Below are positions 1,391 through 60,722 of a stretch of DNA of 64,000 bases, in pieces (the stretch's first letter is position 1; each line of letters starts with the position of its first letter). Origin of the DNA: Saccharibacillus sacchari DSM 19268 (lineage in GTDB: Bacteria; Bacillota; Bacilli; Paenibacillales; Paenibacillaceae); the NCBI RefSeq assembly GCF_000585395.1, contig NZ_KK073875.1, positions 3,695,307 through 3,759,306 on the forward strand. The letters are read 5' to 3'. The position numbers and the translations under genes are program-made. The notes beneath the pieces were generated by a model, which had not been told where the DNA came from, made no database searches, and saw only the letters and a list, made by a program, of their open reading frames with translations.

Positions 1391-2664
1391 GCGAAGCAAC
1401 GGAGAAAGCTTATCTGGAAGCCAAAAAATTATACGCCAAGCATGGCGTCGACGTGGATGCGGCACTCGCCAAACTGGCGGATATCAAGATATCGATTCAT
1501 TGCTGGCAAGGAGACGACGTGCAAGGGTTTCTGTTCCGCGATAAGACGCTAAGCGGAGGAATTGCAGTAACCGGCAGTTACCCGGGGCGCGCTTCGACGC
1601 CGAATGAGCTGCGTGCCGATCTGGATGCGGCTTTGGCGCTTATTCCGGGCAAACATAAAGTCAACCTGCACGCGATCTATGCGGATACGGACGAGCAAGT
1701 AGACTTGGATGCGTTAGAGCCGCGTCACTTCCAGGGCTGGATCGATTGGGCGAAGAGCAAGGGTCTGGGTTTGGACTTCAACCCGACGCTGTTCTCCCAT
1801 CCAAAGGCTGAGGACGGCTTTACTCTAAGCCATACCGATCCGGAAATCCGCAAATTCTGGATCGATCATTGCAAGGCTTCACGCCGCATCGCCGAGACTT
1901 TCGGTCGCGAGTTGGGTCAACCGTGCGTCACAAACCACTGGATGCCGGACGGATTCAAAGATACGCCGGTCGACCGCTGGTCGCCGCGCGCGCGTCTGCG
2001 AGATTCCCTCGACGAGATCTTCGCCGAGAAGATCGACGAGCAATACAACATCGACGCGGTGGAAAGCAAATTGTTCGGCATCGGTTCGGAGAGCTACGTC
2101 GTCGGTTCGCATGAGTTCTATATGGGCTATGCCATGAGCCGAGGCAAGACCGTTTGCCTGGATGCCGGACATTTCCACCCGACCGAAGTCATTTCCAATA
2201 AACTGTCTTCCATCCTGATGTTCACCGACCAACTGCTGCTGCACGTTAGCCGCCCGGTTCGCTGGGACAGCGACCACGTCGTAACGATGGACGACGAGCT
2301 TTTGGAAATCGCCCGCGAACTCGTTCGCGGCGATCTGCTGCCGCGCACCCATATCGGACTCGATTTCTTCGACGGCAGCATCAACCATATCGCCGCCTGG
2401 GTCATCGGCGTTCGCAACACCCAAAAAGCACTTCTGCGCGCTCTGCTTGAGCCGATCGAACAGCTTAAACAAATCGAAGTCGAAAAAGACTACACATCCC
2501 GTCTGGCACTCGTCGAAGAATTCAAATCTTACCCATTCGGCGCGATCTGGGACCACTTCTGCGACCAAGCCGGCGTCCCCGTCCGCGAAGACTGGCTGAC
2601 CCAAGTCAAAACCTACGAAAAAGAAGTCTTGGAAAAACGAGGCCAAGAAAGTGTGATGCAGTAG
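1387..2664 (+). CDS. rhaA: L-rhamnose isomerase
   Basis: It interconverts L-rhamnose and L-rhamnulose, a metal-dependent TIM-barrel isomerase in the cytoplasm. The 425-residue product matches the usual RhaA length (about 420) and carries family segments such as [40 protein letters not shown] and [13 protein letters not shown], which hold the metal and substrate ligands. The ATG overlaps the rhaB stop by 4 bp. The gene ends at the edge of a long inverted repeat (2662-2893) whose left arm includes the stop codon. rhaD follows in the same direction 483 bp later, so the repeat sits inside what should be the rhaBAD unit. Confidence 0.95.
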
Positions 2665-2893
2665 CTTCTAAGCAGCTATTCCCGCTATTCTCGAAAGTTA
2701 CGTTGGCGGGAGAAGCGAGAAGACTGCGAGAGAAATTCGTTCAAGCCGCTGTCTCACTTGGAAAAGTTGATTGAAATTTTGAGTTGAAGTTTTCCAAGTT
2801 CAAAGGCGTCTTTCACTGAATTTCTCTCTCCGTCTTCTCGCTTCCAGCCATGTTGGACTTTCTCCAGACGTTGAATAGCTTCTAAGAAGCTTG
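2662..2893. repeat. Dispersed long-hairpin element, copy 1
   Basis: First of seven full copies in the window. Nested inverted arms: outer 2662-2681 with 2873-2893 (AGCTTCTAAG core), a GAAGCGAGAAGAC/GTCTTCTCGCTTC stem (2712-2724 with 2832-2844), and an apical stem ACTTGGAAAA/TTTTCCAAGT (2756-2765 with 2790-2799). Between the stems lie the near-invariant strands around AAATTCGTTCAA...CGCTGTCTCAC and TTCAAAGGCGTCTTTCACTG. The left outer arm includes the rhaA stop codon, and the element separates rhaA from rhaD. Confidence 0.85.
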
Positions 2894-2960
2894 TATAGGG
2901 AGAAAAAAAGATACCAAGATTAAAGAAAAGATATAAGAAAATGAATACCGAGTTTCACAC

Positions 2961-2983
2961 AGGCGAAGGGTTCGACTTCGCCT
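2961..2983 (+). other. Short hairpin upstream of rhaD
   Basis: AGGCGAAG and CTTCGCCT form a perfect 8 bp stem with a 7-base loop. No T-run follows, so this is more likely a leader structure or mRNA-stability hairpin than a terminator. The rest of 2894-3147 is A-rich and shows no gene. Confidence 0.4.
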
Positions 2984-3147
2984 CTATGAACTAACCCACC
3001 ATCCACGTGCGTGCCGAGCGGAGGGGGAGAAGGAGTCGAAGAAACGAAGTGGTCGCCTTTGAAAATTCAACACGCGATCGCAGACCCTTCTCCCACGCAG
3101 CGCCCCCAGCGCCGCTCCATTTCCACGCACCCAAAGGAGCCCAACTC

Positions 3148-3987
3148 ATGAGCACAATCAACGCCGAACAAACAGCAAAAGCGCTTGAAATTCCGTTTAT
3201 CCGCGAAATGTCGGAAATCACCCAACATATGTGGCGCAATGGCTGGGACGAGCGCAACGGCGGTAACGTCAGTTATATTCTCGACGAAGCCGAAGTTGCC
3301 AAATACCTCGATATCGATAAGGTCATTCGCGTGATCGAGCCTGCATTTCCTGTTAACGAACTTGCGGGCAAATACTTTATCGTAACCGGCTCCGGCAAGT
3401 ATTTCAAAAATGTGCTGCAAGACCCGTCCGGCAATCTGGGCGTGCTGCGCGTAAGCAAAGACGGCACCAAGCTGGAGCTGCTATGGGGCCTGGATCACGA
3501 TGCCAAGCCGACGAGCGAGCTGCCTTCGCATTTTATGAGTCATATTGAACGTCTGAAGGCTGATCCGAACCATCGCGTCGTTATTCATAACCACGCAACG
3601 AATGTGCTGGCGATGACCTTCATTCACGACCTCGATGAAGCCAAGTTTACGAAAACGTTATGGGAAATGTGTACCGAATGCATCGTCGTATTCCCCGACG
3701 GCATCGGCATTATTCCGTGGATGGTGCCGGGTTCGAGCGAGATCGGCCGCGCGACGGCGGACAAGATGAAGGAGTATCATTCGGTCATTTGGCCGCAGCA
3801 CGGCATTTTCGGAACCGGCACATCGATTGACGAGGCTTTCGGCTTGATCGAGACGATCGAGAAGGCGGCACAGATTTATATGCTGATCGCTCACCATGAG
3901 ATCAAGCAGCGGATTACTGAACAAGAACTGTCTGACCTTGCGGCAGCGTTCGGCGTCAACCCACGGCCAGGCATTTTAAGCGTCTAA
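3148..3987 (+). CDS. rhaD: Rhamnulose-1-phosphate aldolase
   Basis: It splits L-rhamnulose 1-phosphate into dihydroxyacetone phosphate and L-lactaldehyde, the last step of the pathway begun by the two upstream genes. The frame is open from 3007, but the ATG at 3148 is preceded by AAAGGAG at a good distance and gives a 279-residue protein, close to the usual 275. Class II aldolase features: [12 protein letters not shown] near the start, VTGSGKYF, and the zinc ligands His147 and His149 (VIHNHATN) and His218 (QHGIFG). A hairpin follows the stop. Confidence 0.94.
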
Positions 3988-4011
3988 CACGAGCCATGAT
4001 CTTTATAGTTT

Positions 4012-4043
4012 ACGCCTGATTCCCATATGCGGAGTCAGGCGTT
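4012..4043 (+). terminator. Hairpin after rhaD
   Basis: ACGCCTGA and TCAGGCGT pair around a short loop, 25 bases after the rhaD stop, followed by a weak TTTCGTGT tail. Probable intrinsic terminator of the rhamnose unit, with a poor U-tract. Confidence 0.6.
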
Positions 4044-4090
4044 TCGTGTAAAATAAGGACAAACCAGAGAGGCGAAAGGGGGCAAAGCGG

Positions 4091-4543
4091 ATGTTCCAGG
4101 ATCATGCGGAGCAGTATGTCGTGTTTAAGATCGAAGGGGAAGAATACGGATTGCCGATCCAGCATGTGCTGCAAATTCTGACTGTGCCGGAAAATGTTCC
4201 GGTATCGGATTACTATTCGGCGATTCGCGGGATGATGAAGATTCGAGGCAAGATTATGCCCGTATTCGATGTGCGTTTTGCTTTTGGCTTCGACGAAGCA
4301 TTCCCGGATGCTAAGCAAAGGCTGCTGCTCATCGAGATCGGGCGCCTGAACGTAGGCCTAATCGTGGACGAAATTACTGAAGTGCTGAAGGTCGGCGCAG
4401 AGGCTCCTCAGATCGGAGACGGAAAAAGCCGAGGGAAGCGAAAAGGATCGTTTTTCACGGGGATGTATAAAACATCGGATCGAATCGTGATGCTGTTCGA
4501 CCTTCAGGAGATGCTGGAAGAAGAAGGACTGTTCGTCGAATAG
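4091..4543 (+). CDS. CheW-like chemotaxis coupling protein
   Basis: A 150-residue single CheW domain, the type of adaptor that bridges chemoreceptors and the CheA kinase at the inner face of the membrane. Supporting segments are YVVFKIEGEEYGLPIQHVLQIL at the start, IRGMMKIRGKIMPVFDVR in the middle and GLIVDEITEVL before the C-terminal strand. The start follows AAAGGGGG. It stands alone between two terminators with no other chemotaxis gene nearby, so it is an orphan CheW paralogue rather than part of a che operon. Confidence 0.85.
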   Translation: MFQDHAEQYVVFKIEGEEYGLPIQHVLQILTVPENVPVSDYYSAIRGMMKIRGKIMPVFDVRFAFGFDEAFPDAKQRLLLIEIGRLNVGLIVDEITEVLKVGAEAPQIGDGKSRGKRKGSFFTGMYKTSDRIVMLFDLQEMLEEEGLFVE

Positions 4544-4571
4544 CAAGAAAAACTTAAAAAACACACAAATA

Positions 4572-4606
4572 CCCCCGCATCCTTGAATTAACAAGACTGC
4601 GGGGGG
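4572..4606 (+). terminator. Hairpin after the CheW-like gene
   Basis: CCCCCGCA and TGCGGGGG form a strong GC stem 28 bases after the stop. The U-tract is weak (CTATTCGTT), and an A-rich stretch precedes it, so it may also act on the minus strand. Confidence 0.65.
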
Positions 4607-4613
4607 CTATTCG

Positions 4614-5800
4614 TTAAGGTCATTATTCAATTTTATTCGTTCCTCCTGATAATCCAATCCACATGCTTGACATGGCGAACGTAATTCTTGGGTTTCCAGT
4701 CTTGCCGATTGGCGTATGCTTCACAGCTTTCGTCAACCGTTTAGCGGTTTGTTTCTTATTTTGTAAACCAATTTCTTGCCCGGGTCTTGCATCCGTACTC
4801 CGTTAACTTCGGAGCTTGTCGCATCTTCGCGACTGTTTCCATGTCGTGTTGCATATGGGGGTGAGTTCCCGCATACATCGATTCCACGAAAAGTGTTTTC
4901 ACGGACACTTTTCCTTTGTGTAAATCGTGCTAGTATGCTTCGCTGTCGCTATTGCATCGGAACCCTTCTCCTTTCCACGCAAGGTTTAATCCTGCTCGAA
5001 ACGGCCGTTTCCACTGAACAATAGTTTCTCTTTGGTTTGACAACCTAATTGCCCGCATGAGGCGTCTTCTGGACTTACGGGTCCAGTATGCGTAAGCAAA
5101 GGTCTGCCTGCCTAACCTATTGCATTGGAATCATGCTCCTTTTTTGCAAGGCTTCTTTCCTTGCTCGAAATCGCGATTTCCTTCTACAATGGTCTTTTTC
5201 AAAGCATATTCACCTTTACCTTGTTCAATTTAGCATTTACGTCTTGATTCTTGATTACATCTCTGAGTTTCCCACATACCTGATTTTACAGAAAGGTGCT
5301 GTCACGTACGCCTCCTGAACGTAAAACCACTCAGTATGCTTCGCTTACGTGTTTCATCGGAATCTTCTCCTTTGGAGCGAAACGAATCTTCGCTGCTTTG
5401 GCATTTTTCCGGCGGTTAAAGGTCATTATTTGATTTCTTATTGGTGAGTTCCCACGTACCCTCGATCTCACGAAAAACGTTTTCACTGACGTTTTTCATG
5501 CGTGAAAATCGGTCATCGGCACGTTTCGCTAACCTGTGTCATCGGAATCCTGCTCCCTTCGAAATCCAAGATGGTAAAATCTCGTTATCGACCGGTCTTC
5601 AATCTTCCGTCCTCGGCAATGGTCTATGGTGAGTACTCTAAGTTTCCCGCATAACCGTTCTCTCGAAAGACGTTTTCACGGGCGTCTTTCTTTCAACGTA
5701 AGAGTTCGGGATATGCTTCGCTTACCCTAGTCCATTGGACTTGTCCCTCCTTCGATGAATGATGGAAAAGTCTTTGAGTGGCACCCGCAATACCGATGTT
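4614..5800. repeat. Degenerate tandem array of ~190 bp non-coding units
   Basis: No convincing gene lies here. At least five diverged units follow each other, best seen from the motif CATCGGAAtc near 4955, 5123, 5354, 5540 and 5733 (spacing about 170-230 bp). Each is preceded by a TATGCTTCGCTTAC-like box (about 4933, 5083, 5333, 5520, 5712) and, in most units, by GAGTTCCCgCATAC and a small hairpin such as AAAAGTGTTTTCACGGACACTTTT. A related segment GTTAAGGTCATTATT occurs at 4613 and again near 5415. Base composition is T-rich and lower in GC than the neighbours. Short frames exist but are not conserved between units. Confidence 0.65.
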
Positions 5801-6049
5801 GCTGCTGCTTTGAAGTATTGTTGGTGTTGCTCATATATTACCCCCGATCAGAGAAAAGTAAAACGTCTGTAAAAACATCACGATGTTTGTAAAAGCAGAT
5901 CTCGTTCATCCAGCTCTTTCGCGCTTCTGCACACGCAAGATAGCGCTTTATTTTACGATTTTTCTCGTTTTCGGTACCAAGCAAGCTCTAAATCCGCCTT
6001 AATTTTGGGTAATAGAAAAGAAGATAAGCAACATAAGGAGGCGTAAAGG

Positions 6050-6619
6050 ATGGCTATGTTAAAAACGATCAAAACAAGCATGAATGACATCAAGCAGGCA
6101 CAAGACGGAATCAAGGCATCCATGGACGGTCTCAAAACGGAACTGGATACATTGAAAGGCAATATGGAGCGCGTGCAGGAACAGGTGAAGGACAAACCGG
6201 CAAAATTTAAATCCTCTTTATCTTATTTGAAATTGGGAATCGGGGATCTGAAGGCCGAAGCGGCAAATATCAAGCAGGGCTTCGCGCAAATTAAAGATGC
6301 CGGAAAGGATCGGGAACCTGCCGCTGCCTTAATCGCAGGTGCTGAATTTGTGCATGAAGCATCCGGATTTAAGTTGAAAAGGGCAGGACAGGTCATTGGA
6401 GAAATCACGTATGCCGAAGGACCCGAACCCGATACATGGATGGCGAATCATACCTATGTAGACCCTGACCACCGAGGCGGAAACGTAGCCAAGCAGTTAT
6501 TGGATCGGCTTGTTGAAGAGGCGCGCCTGCAAGAAAAAATGATTTTCCCGGTTTGCTCTTATGTTCGCGCTCAATTCAAGCGAAATGATGAGTATCGGGA
6601 CGTATGGCATCAGTATTAA
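6050..6619 (+). CDS. Coiled-coil protein with C-terminal YjdJ-type GNAT domain
   Basis: 189 residues in two parts. Residues 1-90 are helical and charged with heptad-like repeats (IKTSMNDIKQAQDGIKASMD, LKTELDTLKGNMERVQEQV), a likely coiled coil. Residues 100-189 match the small GNAT-like family exemplified by YjdJ (PF14542 type): GEITYAEG, NHTYVDPDHRGGNVAKQLLDRLVEEAR and IFPVCSYVRAQFKR. Such domains are usually stand-alone with about 90 residues. The ATG follows TAAGGAGGCG. The gene stands alone, ends at a terminator, and follows the repeat array; nothing shows its substrate. Confidence 0.75.
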   Translation: MAMLKTIKTSMNDIKQAQDGIKASMDGLKTELDTLKGNMERVQEQVKDKPAKFKSSLSYLKLGIGDLKAEAANIKQGFAQIKDAGKDREPAAALIAGAEFVHEASGFKLKRAGQVIGEITYAEGPEPDTWMANHTYVDPDHRGGNVAKQLLDRLVEEARLQEKMIFPVCSYVRAQFKRNDEYRDVWHQY

Positions 6620-6644
6620 TAAATTTCCGATGAAGATGCACTTT

Positions 6645-6687
6645 AGGCTTGGGTGATACAATGTTGCCCAGGTCTATGCTTTTTTTT
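6645..6687 (+). terminator. Terminator after the GNAT-like gene
   Basis: AGGCTTGGG pairs with CCCAGGTCT (including G-T pairs) and is followed by a run of eight T. Confidence 0.75.
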
Positions 6688-6725
6688 ATGAGCCAAATCG
6701 GTTATTCTTAATAGAAGAACCGACA

Positions 6726-6753
6726 TTGTAATCATTACAATTGTATATATTAT
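6726..6753 (+). promoter_or_regulatory. Fur-family-type operator overlapping the bphO promoter
   Basis: TTGTAATCATTACAA (6726-6740) is a perfect 7-1-7 palindrome with the xxxTAATNATTAxxx layout of Fur/PerR/Zur boxes. Its first bases can serve as a -35 (TTGTAA), with TATTAT (6748-6753) as a -10 at 16 bp. A bound repressor would therefore block the heme oxygenase-phytochrome unit. Which Fur-family member binds cannot be read from the site. Confidence 0.65.
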
Positions 6754-6767
6754 GAACTTCGTGCAGA

Positions 6768-6793
6768 AAGCGGTGGCTCAAGGGCCACCGCTT
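6768..6793 (+). promoter_or_regulatory. Leader hairpin before bphO
   Basis: AAGCGGTGGC and GCCACCGCTT form a perfect 10 bp stem with a 6-base loop, followed by CACTTTT, between the promoter and the start codon. It resembles a weak attenuator or a 5' stability hairpin. It could also end transcription entering from upstream. Confidence 0.5.
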
Positions 6794-6827
6794 CACTTTT
6801 CGGCGCGTCAGCAGGAGGAGACTATCA

Positions 6828-7427
6828 ATGACCACAAACATCTTGGAGCGCCTAAGAAATGACAGCGCGCCTTACCATGATCGGGTGGAAGCCAACCCCT
6901 ATGCTTCTGCAATCATGGACGGCACCATCGAATTGAATGCCTATAAATACTATCTGGAGATGTTCTACGGATTCGTTGTTCCGTTGGAACGTCGCGCGGA
7001 GGCTTCGCAAGCTTTATCCGAATCGGGCTACGATCTGCAAGATCGCCGCAAAACGCCGATGCTGGAAAAGGATCTTATTGCACTCGGCACGTCCGAGGAG
7101 GAGTTTGGCGAGATTCCGCTGTGTATAGCATTGCCGGACATCTCGACCCCGGAGAAACTTCTCGGTTGCTTTTACGTGATCGAAGGCTCGACAATGGGCG
7201 GGCAGATGATCACGAAGAAGCTATCGCGCACATTGCCGATTTCTACAGAATCAGGCCTGGCTTACTTCAATGCTTATGGCGAAGAAAGCCGCACGCGTTG
7301 GGGAGCTTTTCGCGAACGTTTGCTGGAGGCCGGACAAAGCGAGGAAAGCTGTGAAGAGATTACCCAATCCGCGATCGAGACTTTCCGATTGTTGGAGCGC
7401 TGGTTTGAAGAACGAGTAAGACCTTAA
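6828..7427 (+). CDS. bphO: Biliverdin-producing heme oxygenase (BphO type)
   Basis: It opens heme to biliverdin, iron and CO; biliverdin is the chromophore of the phytochrome encoded next. The 199-residue protein has the expected short bacterial form, with the proximal heme ligand in APYHDRVE near residue 17 and the distal-helix motif CFYVIEGSTMGGQMI. The start follows AGGAGGAG. It precedes the phytochrome gene by 48 bp in the same direction, the common bphO-bphP order. The Fur-type box upstream would tie expression to iron, zinc or peroxide, which fits an enzyme that releases iron. Confidence 0.9.
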   Translation: MTTNILERLRNDSAPYHDRVEANPYASAIMDGTIELNAYKYYLEMFYGFVVPLERRAEASQALSESGYDLQDRRKTPMLEKDLIALGTSEEEFGEIPLCIALPDISTPEKLLGCFYVIEGSTMGGQMITKKLSRTLPISTESGLAYFNAYGEESRTRWGAFRERLLEAGQSEESCEEITQSAIETFRLLERWFEERVRP

Positions 7428-7475
7428 CGCCGACATCATGATTGCACCAAACATATAGGAGGTACTTACACCATC

Positions 7476-10031: not shown

Positions 10032-10040
10032 TTCGAAAGA

Positions 10041-10080
10041 AGCCGTCTCTCAATAACTGAGCAGACGGCTTTTTGTTGTT
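10041..10080 (+). terminator. Terminator after bphP
   Basis: AGCCGTCT and AGACGGCT stem followed by TTTTGTTGTTTTTTG. Confidence 0.85.
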
Positions 10081-10101
10081 TTTTGATAAGAAAAGGCAAG
10101 A

Positions 10102-11905: not shown

Positions 11906-11930
11906 ATAAACAGAGAAGGAGAGATACCGC

Positions 11931-12899: not shown

Positions 12900-12909
12900 G
12901 GCTGATTCG

Positions 12910-14707: not shown

Positions 14708-14710
14708 ACT

Positions 14711-14872
14711 AGGGCGTGTCTTCAAACCTCGACGGAAGCATATTTTGCCGAATTTTCGTGCTGAACAAGGAACTTTTCTGAAGGCGTGCCGGGGCACGTC
14801 AAGGGAAAGTGACGCAAGGCAGCGCGAAAAGGCGGTAAAAGATGCATGTTGGCAGGTTTGAAGACACGCCTT
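14711..14872. mobile_element. MITE-like element with 16 bp terminal inverted repeats
   Basis: About 160 bp with perfect ends GGCGTGTCTTCAAACC (14713-14728) and its reverse complement (14855-14870). The interior continues to pair imperfectly (GCATATTTTGCCG with GGCGGTAAAAGATGC) down to a central GGCGTGCC/GGCACGTC stem, and it has no coding frame of its own. CTAG precedes and TTAG follows, possibly a 4 bp target duplication. A nearby palindrome TTAGGGCGTACACGCCCTAA (14871-14890) repeats the same terminal words. Confidence 0.7.
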
Positions 14873-14964
14873 AGGGCGTACACGCCCTAACAAAGCCCGT
14901 GCTCGAAAAATGGAAATTCTGCTGAGCATTTAATCCAAAGATTCTATGGTAAGGAGACTTGCAA

Positions 14965-15477: not shown

Positions 15478-15530
15478 CGAATTTCTCTCCCAGTCTTCTC
15501 GCTTCCCCCCCGCCTACGTAACTATCGAAG
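15478..15530. repeat. Partial copy of the dispersed hairpin element
   Basis: ACGAATTTCTCTCcCAGTCTTCTCGCTTC followed by CCGCCTACGTAACTaTCGA matches one outer arm of the dispersed element (reverse orientation to copy 1). The other arm and the apical loop are missing, so this is a decayed remnant. Confidence 0.65.
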
Positions 15531-17355: not shown

Positions 17356-17633
17356 CCACATATAAAAAAAGCTGCTCTCTAATCGTAGAGAGCAGCCAAC
17401 CTGTAGAGAAAGTCTAGCGTAACTGGAAGCCAGAAGGCGGAGAGAGAAATTCAGTGAAAGACGCCTTTGAACTCGGAAAACTCCTTATTTCAATCCCATC
17501 CATTTTCCGAGTGAGACAGCGTCTTGAACGAATTTCTCTCGGAGCTTTCTGGTTTCCCCCTCGCCCATGTAACTTTTTCGACATCTTGAGAGCTGCTCTC
17601 CAATCATAGAGAGCAGCTTCTTTTTATATGTGG
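17356..17633. repeat. Dispersed long-hairpin element, copy 2 (reverse)
   Basis: Largest arms of the family: CCACATATAAAAA (from 17356) pairs with TTTTTATATGTGG (to 17633), each followed inward by a GCTGCTCTC...GAGAGCAGC hairpin that can act as a terminator in the outward direction. Inside, the stem is GAAGCCAGAAGGCGG with GAGCTTTCTGGTTTC, different from copy 1 yet still paired. The apical stem is ACTCGGAAAA/TTTTCCGAGT. It lies between two converging genes. Confidence 0.85.
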
Positions 17634-24729: not shown

Positions 24730-24951
24730 TGTCGATAAAGTTGTGTAGGCGGGGGAAGCGAGAAGACTGCGAGAAAAATTGCCAGCATAGGCTTCCGAAG
24801 TGCATTTCTTCGAAATGCTTCACAATTCGCTGTCTCACTTGGAAAAGTCGATTGAAAGTTTGAGTTGAAGTTTTCCAAGTTCAAAGGCGTCTTGAACTGA
24901 ATTTTTCTCTCCGTCTTCTCGCTTCTAGTTACGTTTGATTTTTTCGATACA
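24730..24951. repeat. Dispersed long-hairpin element, copy 3, with extra internal hairpin
   Basis: Outer arms TGTCGATAAAG/TTTTTTCGATACA, GAAGCGAGAAGAC/GTCTTCTCGCTTC stem, and apical ACTTGGAAAA/TTTTCCAAGT. Compared with copy 1 it has about 40 extra bases (24780-24826) that form their own hairpin, GAAGTGCATTTC/GAAATGCTTC. Copy 6 has the same insert. It lies between two converging genes. Confidence 0.85.
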
Positions 24952-31029: not shown

Positions 31030-31156
31030 CGAAGCGATAGGGAGGCGCTGCGGGAAAAATTCGCTCAGTACGCTGTCTCGCGCAGAAAGCTTGCAGCTTT
31101 CCGTGCTCAAAGGCGTCCTTCGCTGAATTTCTCCCTCCGCTTGGGCTATCGCATCG
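31030..31156. repeat. Dispersed long-hairpin element, copy 4 (divergent stems)
   Basis: The most changed copy: outer stem GCGATAG (31034-31040) with CTATCGC (31146-31152), next GGAGGCG with CGCTTGGG, apical GCGCAGAAAG with CTTTCCGTGC. All differ from copy 1 yet still pair. The inner strands AAATTCGCTCA...CGCTGTCTC and CTCAAAGGCGTCCTTCGCTGAATTTCTC are retained. Confidence 0.8.
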
Positions 31157-46342: not shown

Positions 46343-46523
46343 TGTCGAGGAAGTTACGTTGGCGGGGGAAGCGAGAAGACTGCGAGAAAAATTCGTTCAA
46401 TCCGCTGTCTCACTCGGAAAATGGATTAGATTGTAATAAGGAGTTTTCCGAGTTCAAAGGCGTCTTTCACTGAATTTCTCTCTCCGTCTTCTCGCTTCCC
46501 TCTCCTACGTAACTTTCTCGACA
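46343..46523. repeat. Dispersed long-hairpin element, copy 5
   Basis: Outer arms TGTCGAGGAAGTTACG (46343-46358) and CGTAACTTTCTCGACA (46508-46523), GAAGCGAGAAGAC/GTCTTCTCGCTTC, apical ACTCGGAAAA/TTTTCCGAGT. The apical pair is C-G where copies 1 and 3 have T-A. Confidence 0.87.
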
Positions 46524-50984: not shown

Positions 50985-51037
50985 TTATGAACGATGCCGT
51001 GAATTTAAATATACGAATTGCAGTCAATGTGAAAAAA

Positions 51038-51053
51038 AGTGCTTGAAATCACA
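51038..51053 (+). promoter_or_regulatory. Fnr/Crp-like site before ric
   Basis: AGTGC-TTGAAA-TCACA matches TGTGA-N6-TCACA in 8 of 10 positions, about 100 bases ahead of the ric start. A better match lies before hcp (60493-60508). Confidence 0.5.
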
Positions 51054-51153
51054 AGTCATCTATTTAACCCTCCCTATACTGAAAAAGAACGAGGCGTCGT
51101 GCTTAATCGCCTTACCGATCGTATCCTTTCAAGCCTATAGGGAGGCCAATCAT

Positions 51154-51858: not shown

Positions 51859-51932
51859 TGAAGAGCAGCAGGTTGGAGGAGCAGCGTATTTCTGCTCTAG
51901 CGTTCTTTCGCCTGCCTTATGAACATAGGAAC

Positions 51933-51968
51933 AAAAAGACTCCGCGAGTGTTCGCGGAGTCTTTTTTC
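51933..51968. terminator. Terminator after ric
   Basis: AAAAAGACTCCGCGA and TCGCGGAGTCTTTTTT. Serves ric and the converging anti-sigma gene. Confidence 0.92.
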
Positions 51969-51994
51969 GTATAGGACTTGCAAAAATAAGCGGA

Positions 51995-53116: not shown

Positions 53117-53636
53117 AGTTCATACTCCCTTTCGCATGGATTTGAAATTTCTTCATTAAAACGGCTCGCGCCCTCATTAATCGGGTCTTGACTGCACTCT
53201 CGGTCAATTCCAGCGTCTGCGCGACCTGCGAAATGCTCATATCTTCAAAGTAATGCAAAATGACTACAATCCGCTGCTTCTGCTCCAATCGATCCACCGC
53301 ATCCCGCATATCGACTCCTTCGTAGTCATTCCCCCGAGAAGCCGTCACCGGGAAGTCCGCAACCGTAACCGTTCGGCTTCGACCACGCAGCAGCGTATTG
53401 CATTCATTGATCAGGATGCGGAACATCCACGTTCGGAAAAACTGAGGTTCCCTCAGCGAGGCTATAGAGCGATAAGCCTTGAAGATCGCCTCCTGCATCG
53501 CATCCGCGACATCCTCTTCTTTTCTCAGCATCGACCAGGCCATATGGTATAACGCCTCTTCGTTTTGCCTCATCAATTCCACAAAAGCATCCCGATCCCC
53601 GTCCCTGGCTCGCAGCACTAACTCTTCATTTGCCAA
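53103..53636 (-). CDS. ECF RNA polymerase sigma factor
   Basis: 177 residues. Region 2 reads YHMAWSMLRKEEDVADAMQEAIFKAYRSIASLREPQFFRTWMFRILINEC and region 4 reads RIVVILHYFEDMSISQVAQTLELTESAVKTRLMRARAVLMKKF. The start is a TTG after AAAGGAAGATGCGC; the nearby ATG is out of frame. It precedes its probable anti-sigma partner. A promoter for autoregulation was not identified. Confidence 0.92.
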   Translation of the reverse strand: MANEELVLRARDGDRDAFVELMRQNEEALYHMAWSMLRKEEDVADAMQEAIFKAYRSIASLREPQFFRTWMFRILINECNTLLRGRSRTVTVADFPVTASRGNDYEGVDMRDAVDRLEQKQRIVVILHYFEDMSISQVAQTLELTESAVKTRLMRARAVLMKKFQIHAKGSMNYESI

Positions 53637-53750
53637 AGCGCATCTTCCTTTCTTTGTTTTGGATGAACATTAGATGGGGGAGCGCGCCGTTCGGTTACAT
53701 CGAATATCTCCATAGACGCAAAAAAGTTCGGCATCCCGGCAAACCACGCA

Positions 53751-53790
53751 AAAAAGCGGAATTTCGCTAAAGAGCGAAATTCCGCTTTTT
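53751..53790. terminator. Hairpin upstream of the sigma gene
   Basis: AAAAAGCGGAATTTCGCT and its exact complement with T-runs both ways. It isolates the sigma operon from the aldehyde dehydrogenase side. Confidence 0.88.
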
Positions 53791-53850
53791 AAAAGACAAG
53801 ATCAGCAAATCAATAAGAAAGTACTACGTTCTTTCTCCTTCTAACTAGAA

Positions 53851-54068
53851 GATCGAGAAACTCCAACGTAGCTGGAAGCGAGAAGACGGAGAGAGAAATT
53901 CAGTGAGGGACGCCTTTGAACTCGGAAAATTCCTTAGTTAAATCCAGTCCATTTTCCGAGTGAGACAGCGTCTTGTGAAGCATTTCGAAGAAATGCACTT
54001 CGGAAGCATACGCTGGCAATTTCTCTCGGAGTCTTCTCGCTTCCCCCGCGAAAGTAACTTTCCCGATC
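53851..54068. repeat. Dispersed long-hairpin element, copy 6 (reverse), with extra internal hairpin
   Basis: Outer arms GATCGAGAAA and TTTCCCGATC, GAAGCGAGAAGAC stem, apical ACTCGGAAAA/TTTTCCGAGT. It has the same insert as copy 3 (GAAGCATTTCGAAGAAATGCACTTC, 53977-54001). The outer arm touches the aldehyde dehydrogenase stop codon. Confidence 0.85.
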
Positions 54069-55380
54069 AGACGCCCCGCACCAATATCGACTTATGATGC
54101 GAGAACGTCTCGAAGCTTTGTTTCCCGTGATACGAACCCATGCCGCTTTCGCCGACGCCGCCGAAAGGCAGTTCGTGCGAACTCATATGCAGCAACGTTT
54201 CGTTCACGCAGCCGCCGCCGAAGGAAACATTGCCGAGTACCTGTTCTTGCACAGCTTTGTCGTTGGTGAACAGATAGAGCGCTAATGGTTTCGGGCGATC
54301 CACGATTTTTTCCAGCACTTCATCCAGATCGGTGTACGTCATCACGGGCAAAATCGGACCAAAGATTTCTTCCTGCATGACAGGCGAATCCCAAGTTATG
54401 CCTTGCAGCAGCGTAGGCTCGATCATCAGCTGCTCGCGATCGGAACGGCCGCCGAGCAGCACTTCGCCATCGTCCAGGAAACGACTGAGTCGATCGAAGT
54501 TTTTGCTGTTTACGATATGAGGGAAGTCGGTATTTTGCATCACGTCTTCGCCGTGTTTGCTCGCAATCTCCAATCCGATCTCTTCCAACAGCGCTTCGCG
54601 CACATCTTCATGTACCAGCAGATAGTCCGGTGCGACGCAGGTTTGGCCCGCATTGAGGAACTTGCCTCGGACGAGACTTTGCGCAGCTTTCTTCAAATTG
54701 GCGTCTTTATGCACGATCGCCGGACTTTTGCCGCCAAGCTCCAGCGTTGTAGGTGTCAGATGCTCGGCAGCTGCGCGCATGACGACTTTGCCGACCGGCG
54801 TACTGCCCGTGAAGAAGATATAGTCGAATTTCTCGCGCAGCAGCTCGGTACTAGTCTCGACTTCGCCTTCCATCACCGCAACAAATTCATCCGGGAAGCA
54901 GTCGCGAACCAGATCCGAACTCACTTTCGATACGTGCGGAGTCAGCTCGGACGGCTTCAGCACGACGGTGTTGCCCGCAGAGATCGCTCCGACCACCGGA
55001 GAAAAGGCGAGCTGGAACGGATAGTTCCACGGCGCGATGACCAGCGTTACGCCATACGGCTCCGGATGAATCGAGCTTGTTCCGTCCGGAATCTGGCTGG
55101 AAGTCGGTACGACGCGCGGCGCCATCCATTGCTCCAGATGCTCCAATGTATAATCCAGTTCGCCGAGCACCAGACGGATTTCAGTGTGGTAGGCTTCGGC
55201 TTCCGATTTATTCAGATCGGCGCGAAGGGCGTCGAGGATACGTTGTTGATAATCTTCAATTCCGCGGCGTAGGCGTTTGAGAGCATCGACCCGGTAGGCG
55301 AGGCTTTTCGTTTGGCCGGTACGGAAAAAGCGACGTTGTCGCAGCACCAGTTCATTAGCGCTTAAAGATGTCGTTGTCAT
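54067..55380 (-). CDS. Aldehyde dehydrogenase, class 3-like (YwdH type)
   Basis: 437 residues from the ATG at 55380. It oxidises aldehydes to acids with NAD(P). Motifs: PWNYPFQLAFSPVVGAISAGN (cofactor fold), FTGSTPVGKVVM, the general base in LELGGKSPAIV and the nucleophile Cys in NAGQTCVAPDYLLVH. The short length, without the N-terminal extension of class 1 enzymes, and the C-terminal GMGSYHGKQSFETFSHHKS place it with long-chain or aromatic aldehyde dehydrogenases. A TetR gene is divergent and probably controls it. Confidence 0.91.
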   Translation of the reverse strand: MTTTSLSANELVLRQRRFFRTGQTKSLAYRVDALKRLRRGIEDYQQRILDALRADLNKSEAEAYHTEIRLVLGELDYTLEHLEQWMAPRVVPTSSQIPDGTSSIHPEPYGVTLVIAPWNYPFQLAFSPVVGAISAGNTVVLKPSELTPHVSKVSSDLVRDCFPDEFVAVMEGEVETSTELLREKFDYIFFTGSTPVGKVVMRAAAEHLTPTTLELGGKSPAIVHKDANLKKAAQSLVRGKFLNAGQTCVAPDYLLVHEDVREALLEEIGLEIASKHGEDVMQNTDFPHIVNSKNFDRLSRFLDDGEVLLGGRSDREQLMIEPTLLQGITWDSPVMQEEIFGPILPVMTYTDLDEVLEKIVDRPKPLALYLFTNDKAVQEQVLGNVSFGGGCVNETLLHMSSHELPFGGVGESGMGSYHGKQSFETFSHHKSILVRGV

Positions 55381-55501
55381 GATGATCGTCTCCCGTTCAT
55401 TTGTATTTTCAAACATTTAATTGCTATCAACTCATAGTTCACAGTATAGACGGTCTGCAATTGTGCTACAATAGCCATCAGTTACACGATTGCGGCTTAT
55501 G

Positions 55502-55513
55502 CCACATATGTGG
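55502..55513 (+). promoter_or_regulatory. Palindrome between the aldehyde dehydrogenase and tetR
   Basis: CCACATATGTGG is a perfect 12 bp palindrome in the divergent promoter region, 41 bases before the tetR start. A plausible TetR operator. Confidence 0.5.
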
Positions 55514-55554
55514 ATAGATTGGGGTTTAAATATTCAAAATAGAAGGAGGAGCCT

Positions 55555-56163
55555 ATGCCTTTATTTTCAGATCCGCCTAATAAGCTCGATCCCAGAGTGA
55601 CACGAACCCGAAAAATGCTGCGGGAAGCGCTCATGGCTCTGCTTGAAGAAAAAGCGTATGAACGGATTACGGTTGCGGATATTGCGGATCGAGCAACCGT
55701 CAACCGTAAAACCTTTTATCTGCATTACGAGACAAAAGATCATCTGCTTCAGAGTGTTACCGACGGGATTTTGGATGAACTGTTCGGCGAAGCGAAAGCG
55801 GCGCAGCCGACCGATCTGTCGATCGACGAGATGCAGAGCTATATTGCCGAGCGGACTTTTGCTTACGTAAAAAAACATCGAACATTCTTCGAAGTGATGT
55901 TCGAACGCAAAGCCATGACGGATTTCGTACAGTACATGAAGCGGTATTTCGCGCGTTTTTACGAAGAAAAATTCGCAAACATCGACGAAAGTCGGCTCTC
56001 GGTGCAAAAAGACGTAATCGCCAGCTACATCGGTTCTGCCTATGTCGGCGTGATTCACGGTTGGTTGAACGACGGAATGAGACAATCGCCGGAAGAAATG
56101 ACTCGCCAGATGATTTTGCTTAATCTTCAAGGACCGATTCAAACGGTGAAAAATTCACAATAG
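55555..56163 (+). CDS. TetR-family regulator
   Basis: 202 residues with HTH ITVADIADRATVNRKTFYLHYETKDHLLQSV and a helical C-terminal domain ending in GWLNDGMRQSPEEMTRQM, like the regulator at 42316. The start follows AGAAGGAGGAGCCT. It is divergent from the aldehyde dehydrogenase gene. Its last codons overlap the first of three similar direct repeats. Confidence 0.89.
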   Translation: MPLFSDPPNKLDPRVTRTRKMLREALMALLEEKAYERITVADIADRATVNRKTFYLHYETKDHLLQSVTDGILDELFGEAKAAQPTDLSIDEMQSYIAERTFAYVKKHRTFFEVMFERKAMTDFVQYMKRYFARFYEEKFANIDESRLSVQKDVIASYIGSAYVGVIHGWLNDGMRQSPEEMTRQMILLNLQGPIQTVKNSQ

Positions 56164-56167
56164 AAAA
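56147..56167. repeat. Direct repeat, copy A (partial)
   Basis: TGAAAAATTCACAATAGAAAA, including the tetR stop codon. It matches 20 of 21 bases with the longer copies at 57844 and, less the last bases, at 58557. Confidence 0.6.
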
Positions 56168-56281
56168 TAAAAAAATCTAAACCGGATAAACTGGGAGTAA
56201 CTGGTTGACGCATGTTAGAGCCTATTTAATAATGGGATTATACGATTTAATATATAGCCTACTATTTAGAGGGGGATGTTC

Positions 56282-56758
56282 ATGCAGAATCGAAAGGCTC
56301 AAGGGTTGATCTTCTCGATGTTCGCTTTTGCCGCGTTGATATCCGGTTGCGGATCTGTAAGTCATGCTCAAACTGCAAACCAGCCTACCCAAATCGAAGT
56401 GTCGGCTACAACGCATCAAATCTTGCCGAATGGCGAACAAGTGCTTGTTGAGATGGAGACTACGGATACCACGTATGAAGAAACAGCGATTTGGCGCCGC
56501 CAAAAGCAAGATGAGCTAAAAGTAAAGATCGGAGAAATCGCCGAAGTGAATCCGGAGGATATTGCACTACTGTTGGGCCAAATCTCGGATTCGGAGTTGA
56601 GTTGTTCAATGGTTCTACGAGCAGATGTTGAACTGGATAGTCAACTCGCACATAAGATCAAAGAGTCGGTAATAAACGCGATAGCCGAAGATCCGTCAGG
56701 TAACAAAATTAAAAAAGAAAGCATTGCGATTTCAAACAGCAAAGGCGAAGTATTTTGA
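56282..56758 (+). CDS. Hypothetical lipoprotein
   Basis: 158 residues from the ATG at 56282, six bases after GGGGG. Lipoprotein signal with Cys23 (FAFAALISGCGSVS). The mature part is mixed alpha/beta with WRRQKQDELKVKIGEIAEVNPEDIALLLGQISD and resembles a small ferredoxin-like domain; no named family is recognised. It lies in a segment bounded by direct repeats, and the next gene follows after 16 bp. Confidence 0.65.
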   Translation: MQNRKAQGLIFSMFAFAALISGCGSVSHAQTANQPTQIEVSATTHQILPNGEQVLVEMETTDTTYEETAIWRRQKQDELKVKIGEIAEVNPEDIALLLGQISDSELSCSMVLRADVELDSQLAHKIKESVINAIAEDPSGNKIKKESIAISNSKGEVF

Positions 56759-56774
56759 AGCAGAGGAGACCCGT

Positions 56775-57824
56775 ATGCGGCTAAAAGATCTACAAGAGAA
56801 AATGCTGATTCCGGATCGAGAAGTTTTGATTAATGGTTTGGTCAAAATGAAAGATTACGATGTGCTGCTGATTTCAATTACAGCGGAAAATCGGAAACAT
56901 AGACTATGGACGTTGCACAAATTGCCGGAGCAGCCGTATGAAGACGAAATCACCTACCAACACGAAGAAACGCTTACGAATCGCGAGATAATGCAGCAGC
57001 AGTTGCAATGGGAAGCTACAATTGCTATCGACAGTCAAGAAAAACATATCTCGCAAATGATCATTCAAGGACAGATCATGACTTTCAATTCGTCGGAGTC
57101 GATGTATGCGATGGAACATCACCATGGAATCGATATGAAGCTCCAGCATTTTGTTGAAAAGGGGCTGGATCTTGAATGTTTTGCAGAGACTCGATTGGAC
57201 CGTTTGTCGTTGACTGTTTACGAGCAGGACGATTCTGAACGTTTTCCGGAAATTGACTTGGATCAAGAATTTGATATCACCTTGAAATTCAATAGTACGA
57301 CTCACAGGGTCCCTATACATACCGAGCCAATTGTGCTGGAATTCGGAAATGCGAAAAAAGAAATCAAGCATTCTTTTTATGATTCTTTTTACGAAAAAAA
57401 ACGCTTTTTCTACATTGATGCCTTGACCCGATATGACCTTTGGAAAGAACGTGAAAAAGAATTAGAGCAGCCTATATCCGCGGACTTGACGGAAGAGGAA
57501 TGGCAGCAGTTTAAAGAGGATCATTTCAGAGCACTGGAAACACTTTGTTCTAGAAAACAGGATCTTGCTCTTGTTGAGTACGAGTCTGAAAACAATATCC
57601 AGTTGAACTTTTATATGAAACACCATTTGGATGCAGCGCCACTACCCTCATCCAACGGTGTAGCGATGTCTATCATGTTCTCACCCGATCACGAGTTTGG
57701 ACACAACGGCTTCAAAAGTCGAATAGATTCGATCGGTCCAGTAGACAAAGCTTTCGAGGGAAGTATTGTCATCGAACTTCTATCTTATTACGTGGAACTG
57801 CCGGAGAAAATTATCAAACTATAA
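56775..57824 (+). CDS. Hypothetical protein, no recognised family
   Basis: 349 residues from the ATG at 56775 after AGAGGAGACCCGT. No signal or membrane segment. It is rich in Glu, Asp, His and aromatic residues and in predicted strands (EQDDSERFPEIDLDQEFDITLKF), and has no motif I can name. Base composition is lower in GC than the surrounding genes, which together with the flanking repeats suggests transfer. It is probably cotranscribed with the lipoprotein. Confidence 0.65.
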   Translation: MRLKDLQEKMLIPDREVLINGLVKMKDYDVLLISITAENRKHRLWTLHKLPEQPYEDEITYQHEETLTNREIMQQQLQWEATIAIDSQEKHISQMIIQGQIMTFNSSESMYAMEHHHGIDMKLQHFVEKGLDLECFAETRLDRLSLTVYEQDDSERFPEIDLDQEFDITLKFNSTTHRVPIHTEPIVLEFGNAKKEIKHSFYDSFYEKKRFFYIDALTRYDLWKEREKELEQPISADLTEEEWQQFKEDHFRALETLCSRKQDLALVEYESENNIQLNFYMKHHLDAAPLPSSNGVAMSIMFSPDHEFGHNGFKSRIDSIGPVDKAFEGSIVIELLSYYVELPEKIIKL

Positions 57825-57834
57825 CTATAATAAT

Positions 57835-57861
57835 TTTAATGTAATGAAAAATTCATAATAG
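57835..57861. repeat. Direct repeat, copy B
   Basis: 27 bases identical to copy C (58548-58574). Includes a small inverted TGAAAAATTCA. It sits just ahead of the TraB/ChaN-like gene. Confidence 0.75.
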
Positions 57862-57887
57862 AAAACAAATAGGAGAAACTAAAGACA

Positions 57888-58535
57888 GTGGAAAAAACAA
57901 AAACAATCGGCCTACTGGGCGTCGTGCATCATAACGAATTGCGCATACAATCCGGTTTGACGCTGGAGCTGACCCGGGAGTTGATTCTGGAGTTCGATCC
58001 GAAAGTTATTTGCGGAGAAGTGCTGCCGTCGAGCTGGGAACATTACAAGCAAAAGTCGGATGATCGAGGATATTGGGGGGAGCCGCCGAGCGAATATTAC
58101 GACCTGATTTTCGATCTTTGCGCGGAGCGTAAGATCGCATTCGAACCTATTGACTGGGTGGAGTTGGACGTATGGAACGATTTTGATCCTTTTCGCAATT
58201 ATGTGGGGCAGAAGCGCGAAGAACTGGAACAGCAATCGGAAGCATTCTGGCAAAAGCAGCTTCAAGGCGCGCAGGAGGGAAGTATCCCGTTCAACACGAC
58301 AGCCTTCGACGAAGCGACGCGCAGCAAATACGAGTGGTTGCAGAGTATCGACCCGGAAGCGCATGAGTTTCGCTGGACAACCCGGCATCTGATCATGACG
58401 CAACGGATCAAAAATGCGATGAAAAGACATCCGAACAAAAAAGTACTGTGCATTGCGGGAGCCGATCACAATCATGTCCTGCATGAACAGTTGGGCAGGG
58501 ACGCCGGTGTTCAACTGATCTATCCATTACGGTAA
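57888..58535 (+). CDS. TraB/ChaN-like domain protein
   Basis: 215 residues starting at a GTG after AATAGGAGAAACTAAAGACA. Segments IGLLGVVHHNELR, VICGEVLPSSWEHY and LCIAGADHNHVLHEQL resemble the conserved Glu and His positions of the TraB/GumN/ChaN-EreA fold, whose members include heme-binding and esterase-like proteins. The match is by pattern only. It is enclosed by two identical 27-base direct repeats. Confidence 0.6.
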   Translation: MEKTKTIGLLGVVHHNELRIQSGLTLELTRELILEFDPKVICGEVLPSSWEHYKQKSDDRGYWGEPPSEYYDLIFDLCAERKIAFEPIDWVELDVWNDFDPFRNYVGQKREELEQQSEAFWQKQLQGAQEGSIPFNTTAFDEATRSKYEWLQSIDPEAHEFRWTTRHLIMTQRIKNAMKRHPNKKVLCIAGADHNHVLHEQLGRDAGVQLIYPLR

Positions 58536-58547
58536 TATTAAATTTTA

Positions 58548-58574
58548 TTTAATGTAATGAAAAATTCATAATAG
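58548..58574. repeat. Direct repeat, copy C
   Basis: 27 bases identical to copy B (57835-57861), 13 bases after the stop of the enclosed gene. Confidence 0.75.
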
Positions 58575-58643
58575 TAAACCTAAAATCAAAAGCAGAAAAA
58601 TTAAAAGCGCAATCTCCAAACCCAAACAACCCTACATACTTAT

Positions 58644-58696
58644 AGAAAAAGCGTAGCTTCATCCCCACAGGCGGGTCGGAAAGCTACGCTTTTTCT
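58644..58696. terminator. Bidirectional terminator before hcp 3' end
   Basis: AGAAAAAGCGTAGCTT and its exact complement around a 21-base loop, with T-runs on both strands. Confidence 0.9.
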
Positions 58697-58708
58697 ATCT
58701 ACTATTTA

Positions 58709-60400
58709 TTAAGCTTCAAGGAACATTTTCATGTCGTCTTCCACATTTGTAATACCGGCAATCCCGAAGTTATCAACCAACACCTGAGCCACATTCGGTG
58801 ATAGGAAGGCAGGCAGAGTCGGGCCGAGATGGATATTTTTCACACCGAGATGCAGCAACGCGAGCAGGACGATAACTGCCTTTTGCTCATACCATGCGAT
58901 ATTATAGGAAATCGGCAGATCGTTGATATCATCCAGACCGAACGCTTCCTGAAGCTTCATCGCGATGACGACGAGCGAGTAGGAGTCGTTGCATTGTCCG
59001 GCATCAAGTACGCGCGGCAGGCCGCCGATCTCGCCAAGATCCAACTTGTTATATTTATACTTGGCACAACCGGCTGTCATGATCACGGTGTCCTGCGGAA
59101 GTTCTTTTGCGAAATCCGTGTAGTAGTTACGCGATTTCATCCGCCCGTCGCAGCCGGCCATCACGAAGAATTGGCGGATCGCGCCGGTCTTTACAGCTTC
59201 GACAACCTGATCGGCAACACTTAGTACCGCATGGTGCGCGAATCCACCGACAATCTCGCCGCTTTCGATTTCTGTTGGAGCCGGGCAGGAACGGGCTTGT
59301 TCAATCAGCGCGGAAAAGTCTTTGTGGGCGCCGTTCTCGCCGTCCGGAATATGCGTCACTCCCGGGAAGCCCGTGTTACCTGTCGTATACAGTCGCCCGA
59401 TATAGCTGTCTTTCGGAGGCACGATACAGTTGGTGGTCATCAGAATCGGTCCGTTGAAGGATTCGAATTCTTTGTTTTGTTTCCACCAGGCGTTGCCGTA
59501 GTTCCCATAGAAGTGATCGTACTTTTTAAAAGCAGGATAGTAATGGGCAGGCAGCATCTCGCTGTGCGTGTAGATGTCAATGCCTTGACCCTCGGTCTGA
59601 ATGAGCAGTTCTTCCAGATCCTTCAGGTCGTGTCCGCTGATCAGGATACCCGGGCGAGTGCCGGCTCCGATGTTGACCTTCGTCACTTCCGGATTGCCAT
59701 AGGCGCCAGTGTTGGCTTTATCGAGCAAGGCCATCGCATCCACGCCGTATTTACCTGCTTCGAGGTTGAGCGCAACCAGATCTCCGGCTTCCAATGTATC
59801 ATCGAGCGTTGCAGCAAGCGCACGACGGGTGAACGCGTCCAATTCCGGATCGATTTCGCTTAGCTGTCCGGCGTGATAAATGTACGCAGCCATGCCTTTG
59901 AGTCCGTAAGTCAGCAGTTCTCGCAGCGAACGAATGTCTTCGTTTTCCGTGCGAAGCACGCCGACCGTCCAGGCTTTGCCATCGAATTCGCTTTCTTCCG
60001 TTTCCCAAGTTGCGGCATCCGGCAAGTTATTTGAAGTCTCAGGGAACTGAGCCTCGCGCAGTGCACGAAGTTCTCTGCGCAGCGCCAAAGCGGCATGGTT
60101 TTTCGCAATAAAGTAATCCCGGTCAAAGTTGGCATTCGTGATCGTGGCAAAAAGCGAGTCCATAATGAACAAGGAGACTCGGCGTTCCAAAGTCGCAGGC
60201 ATATCCAGATCCAGGCTGAGGAAAGAAATGCCCTTCAGCGTATAGATCAGCAAGTCCATCAGATTGGCGACGTCATGGGGTTTACCGCAAACGCCTTGAA
60301 TCGTGCAGCCGGTTCCTTTCGAAGCTTCTTGGCATTGGAAACAGAACATGGAAGGCTGAGTCGCTTCATTTGTTCGTTCGGATCGGGAATTCATGGTCAT
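58709..60400 (-). CDS. hcp: Hydroxylamine reductase / hybrid cluster protein
   Basis: 563 residues from the ATG at 60400, ten bases after GGAGG. It reduces hydroxylamine to ammonia in vitro and acts on nitric oxide as an NO reductase or nitrosylase. The N-terminal cluster ligands are Cys20, Cys23, Cys32 and Cys38 ([13 protein letters not shown]); the hybrid-cluster ligands lie in [40 protein letters not shown] and [10 protein letters not shown]. The partner reductase hcr is absent. An Fnr/Crp-like site lies about 93 bases upstream. Confidence 0.95.
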
Positions 60401-60492
60401 GGTCAATTTCCTCCGTTATCAAGTGTTAGGGGTTATCGCTTCGCGTAATCGTAAGCCTATGTGTTCATTGTAAAAGGTTCAAATTGTAGGCT

Positions 60493-60508
60493 TGTGATTA
60501 CGCGCACA
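60493..60508 (-). promoter_or_regulatory. Fnr/Crp-like site upstream of hcp
   Basis: TGTGA-TTACGC-GCACA matches TGTGA-N6-TCACA at 9 of 10 positions. Outer bases T and A extend it to TTGTGA...GCACAA. Its distance from the start codon suits activation of hcp. Confidence 0.65.
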
Positions 60509-60562
60509 ACAAACCGGGCGACTTTGCGAACGGGGAAACAAAAGTCTCGGAGGGGAGAGAAG

Positions 60563-60722
60563 TTCCTATTCGTATGGGGAAGCTGGGGGCTGCGGGAGAA
60601 ATTCGTTCAAGGCGCTGTCTCACTAGAAAAACTGGAATGAAATTTAAATGGAAGTTTTTTTAGTTCAAAGGCGCCTTTCACTGAATTTCTCCCTTCGCCC
60701 TCGCTTCGCATAAGGAGAGGGG
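60563..60722. repeat. Dispersed long-hairpin element, copy 7 (divergent stems)
   Basis: Stem GGAAGCTGGGGGC with GCCCTCGCTTC, flanked by TATG/CATA; apical ACTAGAAAAAC with GTTTTTTTAGT. Both stems differ from copy 1 but pair. Inner strands AAATTCGTTCAAGGCGCTGTCTCAC and TTCAAAGGCGCCTTTCACTGAATTTCTC are kept. Confidence 0.8.

Follow-up and report, generated by a model that had tools for sequence, protein, structure and literature searches.

In the 64,000 nucleotides of Saccharibacillus sacchari DSM 19268 considered here (the window: contig NZ_KK073875.1, positions 3,695,307 to 3,759,306, with coordinates counted from its first letter), a family of long hairpins lies dispersed between genes. In all probability these hairpins are miniature inverted-repeat transposable elements (MITEs) that draw their transposase from an insertion sequence (IS) of the IS1182 family with the same terminal repeats, and whose insertion duplicates the whole stem-loop of a transcription terminator. 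An earlier note, made from the sequence alone, had seen in them either a selected RNA fold or a palindromic mobile or protein-binding DNA element; the mobile element is borne out, since copies share terminal inverted repeats and have exact target duplications, some sites are found empty, and the ends recur in IS1182-family elements. The family offers a large natural data set on target choice by DNA shape, in which the target, duplicated on insertion, is an entire terminator stem-loop, and supplies many real cases of a stem-loop-duplicating outcome that the published IS1182-type model had listed as possible. Its geometry could explain well over a hundred gene-adjacent insertions at little cost, and its history illustrates that strong co-variation of base pairs among dispersed repeats need not imply a host-selected RNA.

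The element is palindromic and about 190-240 bp long. Genomes are labelled here as G000 (the genome under study), G003 (S. qingshengii), G007 (S. alkalitolerans), G010 (Saccharibacillus sp. CPCC 101409), G014 (Saccharibacillus sp. JS10) and G015 (S. endophyticus CCM 8702), and fetched loci carry L-numbers. In G002 and G003, copies with duplicates measure 203-207 bp, start with TCAGGCTGTCGAGAAAG, finish with CTTTCTCGACACGTTGA and have TCANNNTGTCGAGAAAGTC-like sequence at both ends. They are typically flanked by two whole terminator stem-loops in direct orientation, with an A-run outside the left one and a T-run outside the right one; at L093, for example, GCTCCTTCCCGTATCGGGAAGGAGC is present on both sides of the element. 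A gapless duplicate of the whole stem-loop accompanies 20 of the 23 copies sampled from these two genomes, the other three being L089, whose duplicate is interrupted by an indel of one base, and two without any, L101 and L102. The same test, which demanded two recognisable terminal repeats and a gapless direct repeat of at least 14 bp at the element ends, was applied to all fetched loci (83 rows for 81 distinct places, as two rows, in L155 and L107, re-count places without a duplicate). Duplicates were found at 46 of the 81 places, 30 of them exact, with lengths of 14-30 bp and a median of 21.5. At least four complementary bases stand at both ends of the duplicate in 33/46 cases, compared with 4/513 shifted windows, and the duplicates are framed by T-rich sequence 3' of the right one (at least 5 of 8 bases; 37/46) and A-rich sequence before the left one (31/46).

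Two empty sites complete the picture of insertion. At L013/L155 and L269/L248, S. endophyticus has one stem-loop where the genome under study has stem-loop, element and stem-loop, and at the latter site the two G000 stem-loops already differ slightly. The family thus has what defines a MITE: short length, terminal inverted repeats, no coding content (judged from length) and target site duplication. The flanking hairpins match each other directly, loop included, and not in inverted orientation, which rules out that the outer stems are themselves target-derived inverted duplications. At L118 one of the duplicated terminators reads GGACGTCC..GGACGTCC and the other GGACGCCC..GGGCGTCC, a pair change with compensation, which suggests that duplicated terminators themselves remain functional.

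A likely source of transposase emerged from the terminal-repeat search of G002, which also marked a 1570-bp element whose open reading frames (ORFs) match DUF772 and DDE_Tnp_1_6 (Pfam). Relatives of this IS occur in the genome under study (two, 94-95%) and in G003; G002, G008 and G012 contain fragments, and a further IS1182 type, L225, also lies in G000. MITE and IS have the end TCANNNTGTCGAGAAA in common; the 1570-bp copies L219, L220 and L223 share TCAGNNTGTCGAGAAA with the MITE and have ends of the TCAG..TGTCGAGAAA type, as does the 1550-bp L225 with 1-2 mismatches. By these ends, L219, L220 and L223 would qualify as autonomous partners. Exact stem-loop duplicates enclose four of the five complete IS copies (29 bp at L219, 18 bp at L220, 19 bp at L223 and 24 bp at L225), as befits the palindromic or stem-loop targets of the IS1182 family. 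Assignment of the transposase to that family comes from NCBIfam NF033551, which scores L225 at 460 bits and the C-terminal ORF of L220 at 286.5 bits against a whole-protein cut-off of 270 bits; the N-terminal ORF, at 212 bits, falls under that whole-protein threshold. In all four 1570-bp copies (L218, L219, L220 and L223) a conserved AAAAAAG marks the junction of the two transposase ORFs, presumably as a -1 frameshift motif, and the junction looks like a candidate site of programmed -1 frameshifting. Two other DDE_Tnp_1_6 genes, at L289 and L294, were considered as partners and rejected, as convincing matching ends were not seen. The earlier note had set a known MITE with its transposase against a selected fold; a likely transposase source has been found, but the MITE itself matches no described one.

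Taken together, we propose that the transposase would pick its target by shape, recognising the stem-loop at a rho-independent terminator, and that the element would be joined so that the whole stem-loop ends up copied on both sides. The cuts would probably fall at the 5' feet of either a folded strand or an extruded cruciform. The MITE would be mobilised in trans by the IS1182 transposase. What is duplicated is the stem-loop but not its A- and T-tracts, the A-run usually staying on the left and the T-run on the right, and each flank could therefore retain a working terminator; insertions would then be cheap, close to neutral for termination, and many copies could be allowed. The palindromic body would be maintained at the level of active elements, with fixed copies decaying and probably trading modules among themselves and with other copies, whether gene conversion or recombination of the inverted arms brings this about.

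Several observations weigh against this account. Mobilisation of the MITE itself was not observed, and the sequence that it has in common with the IS amounts, by eye, to about the terminal 16 bases only. The fifth complete IS, L218 in G002, has unlike hairpins on its two sides, and the shorter remnants L221, L224 and L227 (two end-like matches) have diverged or unlike hairpins only. At 35 of the 81 places no gapless 14-bp duplicate stands, some having diverged or indel-bearing versions and others nothing, and 33 of 78 G000 elements have neither terminal repeat in recognisable form. Finally, DDE_Tnp_1_6 matched 5 of 16 congeners (four above cut-off) and gave no match in the other 11, including the repeat-rich S. 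endophyticus and G014, so the source may have been lost there, may be another enzyme or may lie outside the assembly.

The fold of the hairpin core, drawn from 50 aligned copies, starts with a variable outer stem and an 11-bp stem (GRGAGAAATTC/GAATTTCTCYC), passes a bulge and small loop, and continues inward through a 7-bp stem (AAGACGC/GCGTCTT) and a conserved loop (TGTCTC/TCAAAG) to a variable apical stem. Two-sided changes affect 16 of 32 pairs in at least one sequence (119 cells), 93.1% of cells pair, none of 500 shuffles matches any of five measures of co-variation, and sliding one strand by 1-3 columns abolishes the signal. The paired change of outer and apical stems reported in the earlier note is therefore real between copies. 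Its two constant inner strands need a correction: they do not form a plain unpaired loop, as AAGACGC/GCGTCTT pairs and co-varies, so that part of the supposed internal loop is paired. RNAalifold adds two pairs beside the bulged T, preserved through double changes in one and two of the 50 sequences, and a whole G002 element gives an RNA fold z of -4.1. As that note had suspected, the family is not a known one as far as Rfam 15 extends, where no match reaches the gathering thresholds and two weak matches (E at most 1) fall outside the copies; an Rfam RNA family was thus discarded as an explanation.

What happens to a copy once fixed can be followed by comparison with S. endophyticus, in whose fetched loci both flanks gave a position to 32 of the 78 unique elements of G000. 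Automatic parsing gave 27 pairs occupied in both species (where elements are double, some of its side-hairpin calls are open to doubt), of which two are inverted, three have another core type, ten differ in a 42-nt side hairpin and six have an apical part less than 60% identical; 17 of the 27 show at least one structural difference. By eye, the apical stem-loops of the copies at 2662 and 60563 are wholly different between the species, and the copies at 24730 and 46343 are inverted, perhaps because each species acquired its insertion independently. Without leaving their sites, elements thus exchange, gain, lose or invert interior modules. No element is seen in the S. endophyticus intervals aligned with 17356 and 15478, where poor alignment keeps the pre-insertion site from being read.

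Pairing was counted at 18 of the 32 placed sites, after removal of 14 that were empty, unparsed, inverted, of another core type or double elements, and with 74 gapped pair cells set aside. Among 1180 base pairs there are 143 one-sided changes, 93 of them pair-breaking, and 39 two-sided changes, where shuffling expects 12.4 with a maximum of 21 in 1000; 30 of these 39 preserve pairing, and altogether 102 of 182 changed pairs break. The excess of two-sided changes includes module replacement. Across 22 same-orientation pairs of type A, identity is 0.929 in the 3' strand, 0.892 in the 5' strand (13 pairs), 0.86 in the outer arms and 0.908 in the flanks, values that do not support an overall slower evolution of the core than of its flanks. 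Purifying selection on the core is likewise not claimed from the copies that lack terminal repeats, because copies were found via the core. In our reading, the pattern at fixed sites reflects a selfish palindrome that evolves in concert, and not selection acting site by site.

This turnover in place might have a more direct cause, if hairpins as such, whether of target or element, are what the transposase works on. The element would then move as a folded strand or cruciform, so that a palindromic body would be needed, and in-place turnover of side hairpins, apical stem-loops and entire cores would be the exchange of one stem-loop for another by the same enzyme in resident elements; we consider this unlikely, and grant the same slender chance to its corollary, that the family is a cassette-swapping hairpin system rather than a subject of ordinary gene conversion.

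Still less probable, and in our judgement very doubtful, is that host selection at each place maintains the core as a structured RNA, or as a hairpin of the 3' untranslated region (3'-UTR) bound by protein, with mobility secondary. Strong co-variation between copies, conserved unpaired positions and the surplus of double changes at orthologous sites would all fit such a role, as would the recognisable core in the 33 of 78 G000 copies that retain neither terminal repeat, a number biased by the finding of copies through their core. At fixed sites, however, about two-thirds of one-sided changes break pairs, the 39 double changes include swapped modules, and whole stem-loops are exchanged, inverted, gained or lost. 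Orientation to genes tells against it too. Between two called genes lie 188 elements (64 convergent, 99 tandem and 25 divergent), with a median distance from core edge to facing gene end of 92 bases for 60 G000 elements and 101 for the other 144; 14 of the 204 elements in fetched loci fall inside crude ORF calls, which were not checked individually. Within tandem genes, 46 elements are sense and 53 antisense, or 12 and 23 among the 60 G000 elements and 34 and 30 among the other 144 (some G000 loci included). One-sided breaks and unbiased orientation are therefore not as expected for a strand-specific RNA selected at each place, and a strand-specific 3'-UTR RNA was rejected on these two grounds. 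The selected fold of the earlier note thus holds between copies, at the level of the element, and fails both at the 18 orthologous sites and in orientation; it seems to belong to the mobile element as such and not to a host RNA selected per site.

That an enzyme of another class, such as a REP-type Y1 transposase, moves the family, its likeness to IS1182 ends being accidental, is highly improbable: palindromes are indeed many, also in genomes without a DDE_Tnp_1_6 match, but MITE and IS agree in an end of about 16 bases, and both, unusually, duplicate a whole stem-loop. The notion that the twin hairpins arose by recombination or convergent terminator evolution around the repeat, to which the merely rough similarity of hairpins flanking older copies might lend colour, is scarcely credible against exact duplicates, loop included, in register with the element ends of MITEs and ISs alike and against two empty sites with a single stem-loop.

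Returning to the window with transposition of a MITE as the preferred reading, direct reading and repeat finding recovered the seven full copies and one remnant of the earlier note at their places, and the covariance-model search that it had recommended, with a model (R1) built from the 50 aligned copies, found 7/7 full copies at 66-130 bits. Five of the seven were in its training set; the copies matched at 24805 and 53884, which carry the extra 42-nt side hairpin, were not. All seven lie between crude ORF-based gene calls, in both orientations, and clear stem-loop duplicates accompany those at 2662 and 17356. The first copy (2662-2893) has its core at 2721-2835 (plus strand, 127.2 bits). Its left stem-loop duplicate, AGCTTCTAAGCAGCT at 2663-2677, overlaps the stop codon at 2662-2664 and is 14/15 identical to the right one, read in the sequence as AGCTTCTAAGAAGCT at 2877-2891. 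A weak, degenerate extra copy at 3016-3103 (minus strand, 22.6 bits, E 0.0029) overlaps the start of the ORF at 3007-3987, to which the hairpin family may have supplied sequence. The remnant at 15478-15530 is a single outer arm, 34 nt of which are 94% complementary to the left arms at 2662 and 46343. In the second copy (17356-17633; core 17435-17547, minus strand, 125.8 bits) the left terminator stem-loop, at 17370-17396 with an A-run to its left, has two differences from the right one, at 17591-17617 with a T-run to its right.

The third copy (24730-24951), one of the two inverted at their orthologous sites, starts to the left of its model match (24805-24916, plus strand, 66.2 bits) and has its side hairpin at about 24781-24822. 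The fourth (31030-31156; core 31045-31142, plus strand, 97.0 bits) has a short apical loop and one core difference in S. endophyticus; recognisable terminal repeats were not seen. The fifth, a plus-strand palindrome at 46343-46523 bounded by TGTCGA and TCGACA (core 46377-46489, 120.9 bits), gives an RNA fold of -96.6 kcal/mol (z -10.8) and is the other inverted copy. The sixth (53851-54068; core 53884-53993, minus strand, 66.9 bits) is a side-hairpin variant whose orthologous site is without the side hairpin, and the seventh (60563-60722; core 60587-60700, plus strand, 129.8 bits) is, like the first, one of those whose apical stem-loop is wholly different at the orthologous site.

Beyond the window, a 29-nt piece of an inner strand has 191 matches (at most three mismatches) in the 6,075,237 bases of G000, with none for a reversed-pattern control, and 167 in S. 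endophyticus. It matched 10 of 59 genomes, G000 included and all Saccharibacillus, and none of the 43 outside the genus; in a named genome collection, among the matches listed, 88 of 89 stretches are Saccharibacillus and one is Acidithiobacillus. As R1 searches score no more than 150 candidates per genome, and a place may be matched on either strand or on both, the counts are of matches and not copies: at least 150 in G000, and some in all 14 other congeners searched (G015 not included), from one weak match in G001 to 87 in G003 and in G010 and 113 in G014. In G002 and G003 most copies have a core of a related type, which shares the ends GCTGCGGGAGAAATTCGTT..CACTGAATTTCTCCCTCCGC but has other inner strands. 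Copy number is lineage-specific and, in the genomes searched, the family is limited to the genus.

Other repeats share the window. At 14709-14874 lies a second dispersed palindromic repeat with 55-bp arms (CTAGGGCGTGTCTTCAAACC..), to which many places in G015 and G010, and one listed in G002, are 77-96% similar; sequence resemblance to the hairpin family was not seen. A 32-nt element with ATGAAAAATTCAT symmetry occurs three times (56137-56168, 57835-57866 and 58548-58579; two are 97% alike) and is possibly the binding site of a regulator. One intergenic region, at 60734-60917, contains a series of four 23-nt units related to each other (AATAACTGCAAATATCCATTTAA and the like), at spacings of 50, 61 and 50 bases, possibly operator sites.

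Among known systems, REP/BIME repeats are likewise numerous intergenic palindromes, often near gene ends, and we know of no terminal repeats with target duplications in those associated with RAYT, whose transposase class differs. The bcr1 repeats of the Bacillus cereus group are MITE-like and palindromic, and the direct repeats of IS1182-family elements vary widely in length. Together with bcr1, the repeats ERIC, RUP/BOX/SPRITE and QMITE resemble the Saccharibacillus family in being short, foldable, repeated and mostly intergenic. ERIC, RUP/BOX/SPRITE and QMITE are described as MITE-like palindromic repeats in PMC10969869, the accessible text of which mentions neither terminator stem-loop duplication nor IS1182-type ends for them. 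The Saccharibacillus partner IS has the transposase of the IS1182 family in general, some members of which target palindromes (review cited in PMC5678879). IS1272/TnSha1 of staphylococci, of the same family, targets stem-loops, several of them terminators, without primary sequence preference, and deletes or replaces the target stem-loop with no duplication (PMC4923244 and PMC5678879); in the Fig 13 legend of the latter, the model is given an alternative outcome (6b) in which the stem-loop is duplicated. A literature search, with subscription papers mostly outside its coverage, found no description of IS1182-family MITEs at terminators. IS1272 and the Saccharibacillus family agree in transposase family and in stem-loop targets that include terminators. 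They differ in that gene-less MITEs far outnumber the ISs found in Saccharibacillus, and in the fate of the target, which IS1272 removes or replaces whereas the stem-loop here stands on both sides of the element, contrary to replacement without duplication. We therefore regard the hairpins as probable MITEs of the IS1182 family, which duplicate a terminator stem-loop whole where IS1272 replaces it.

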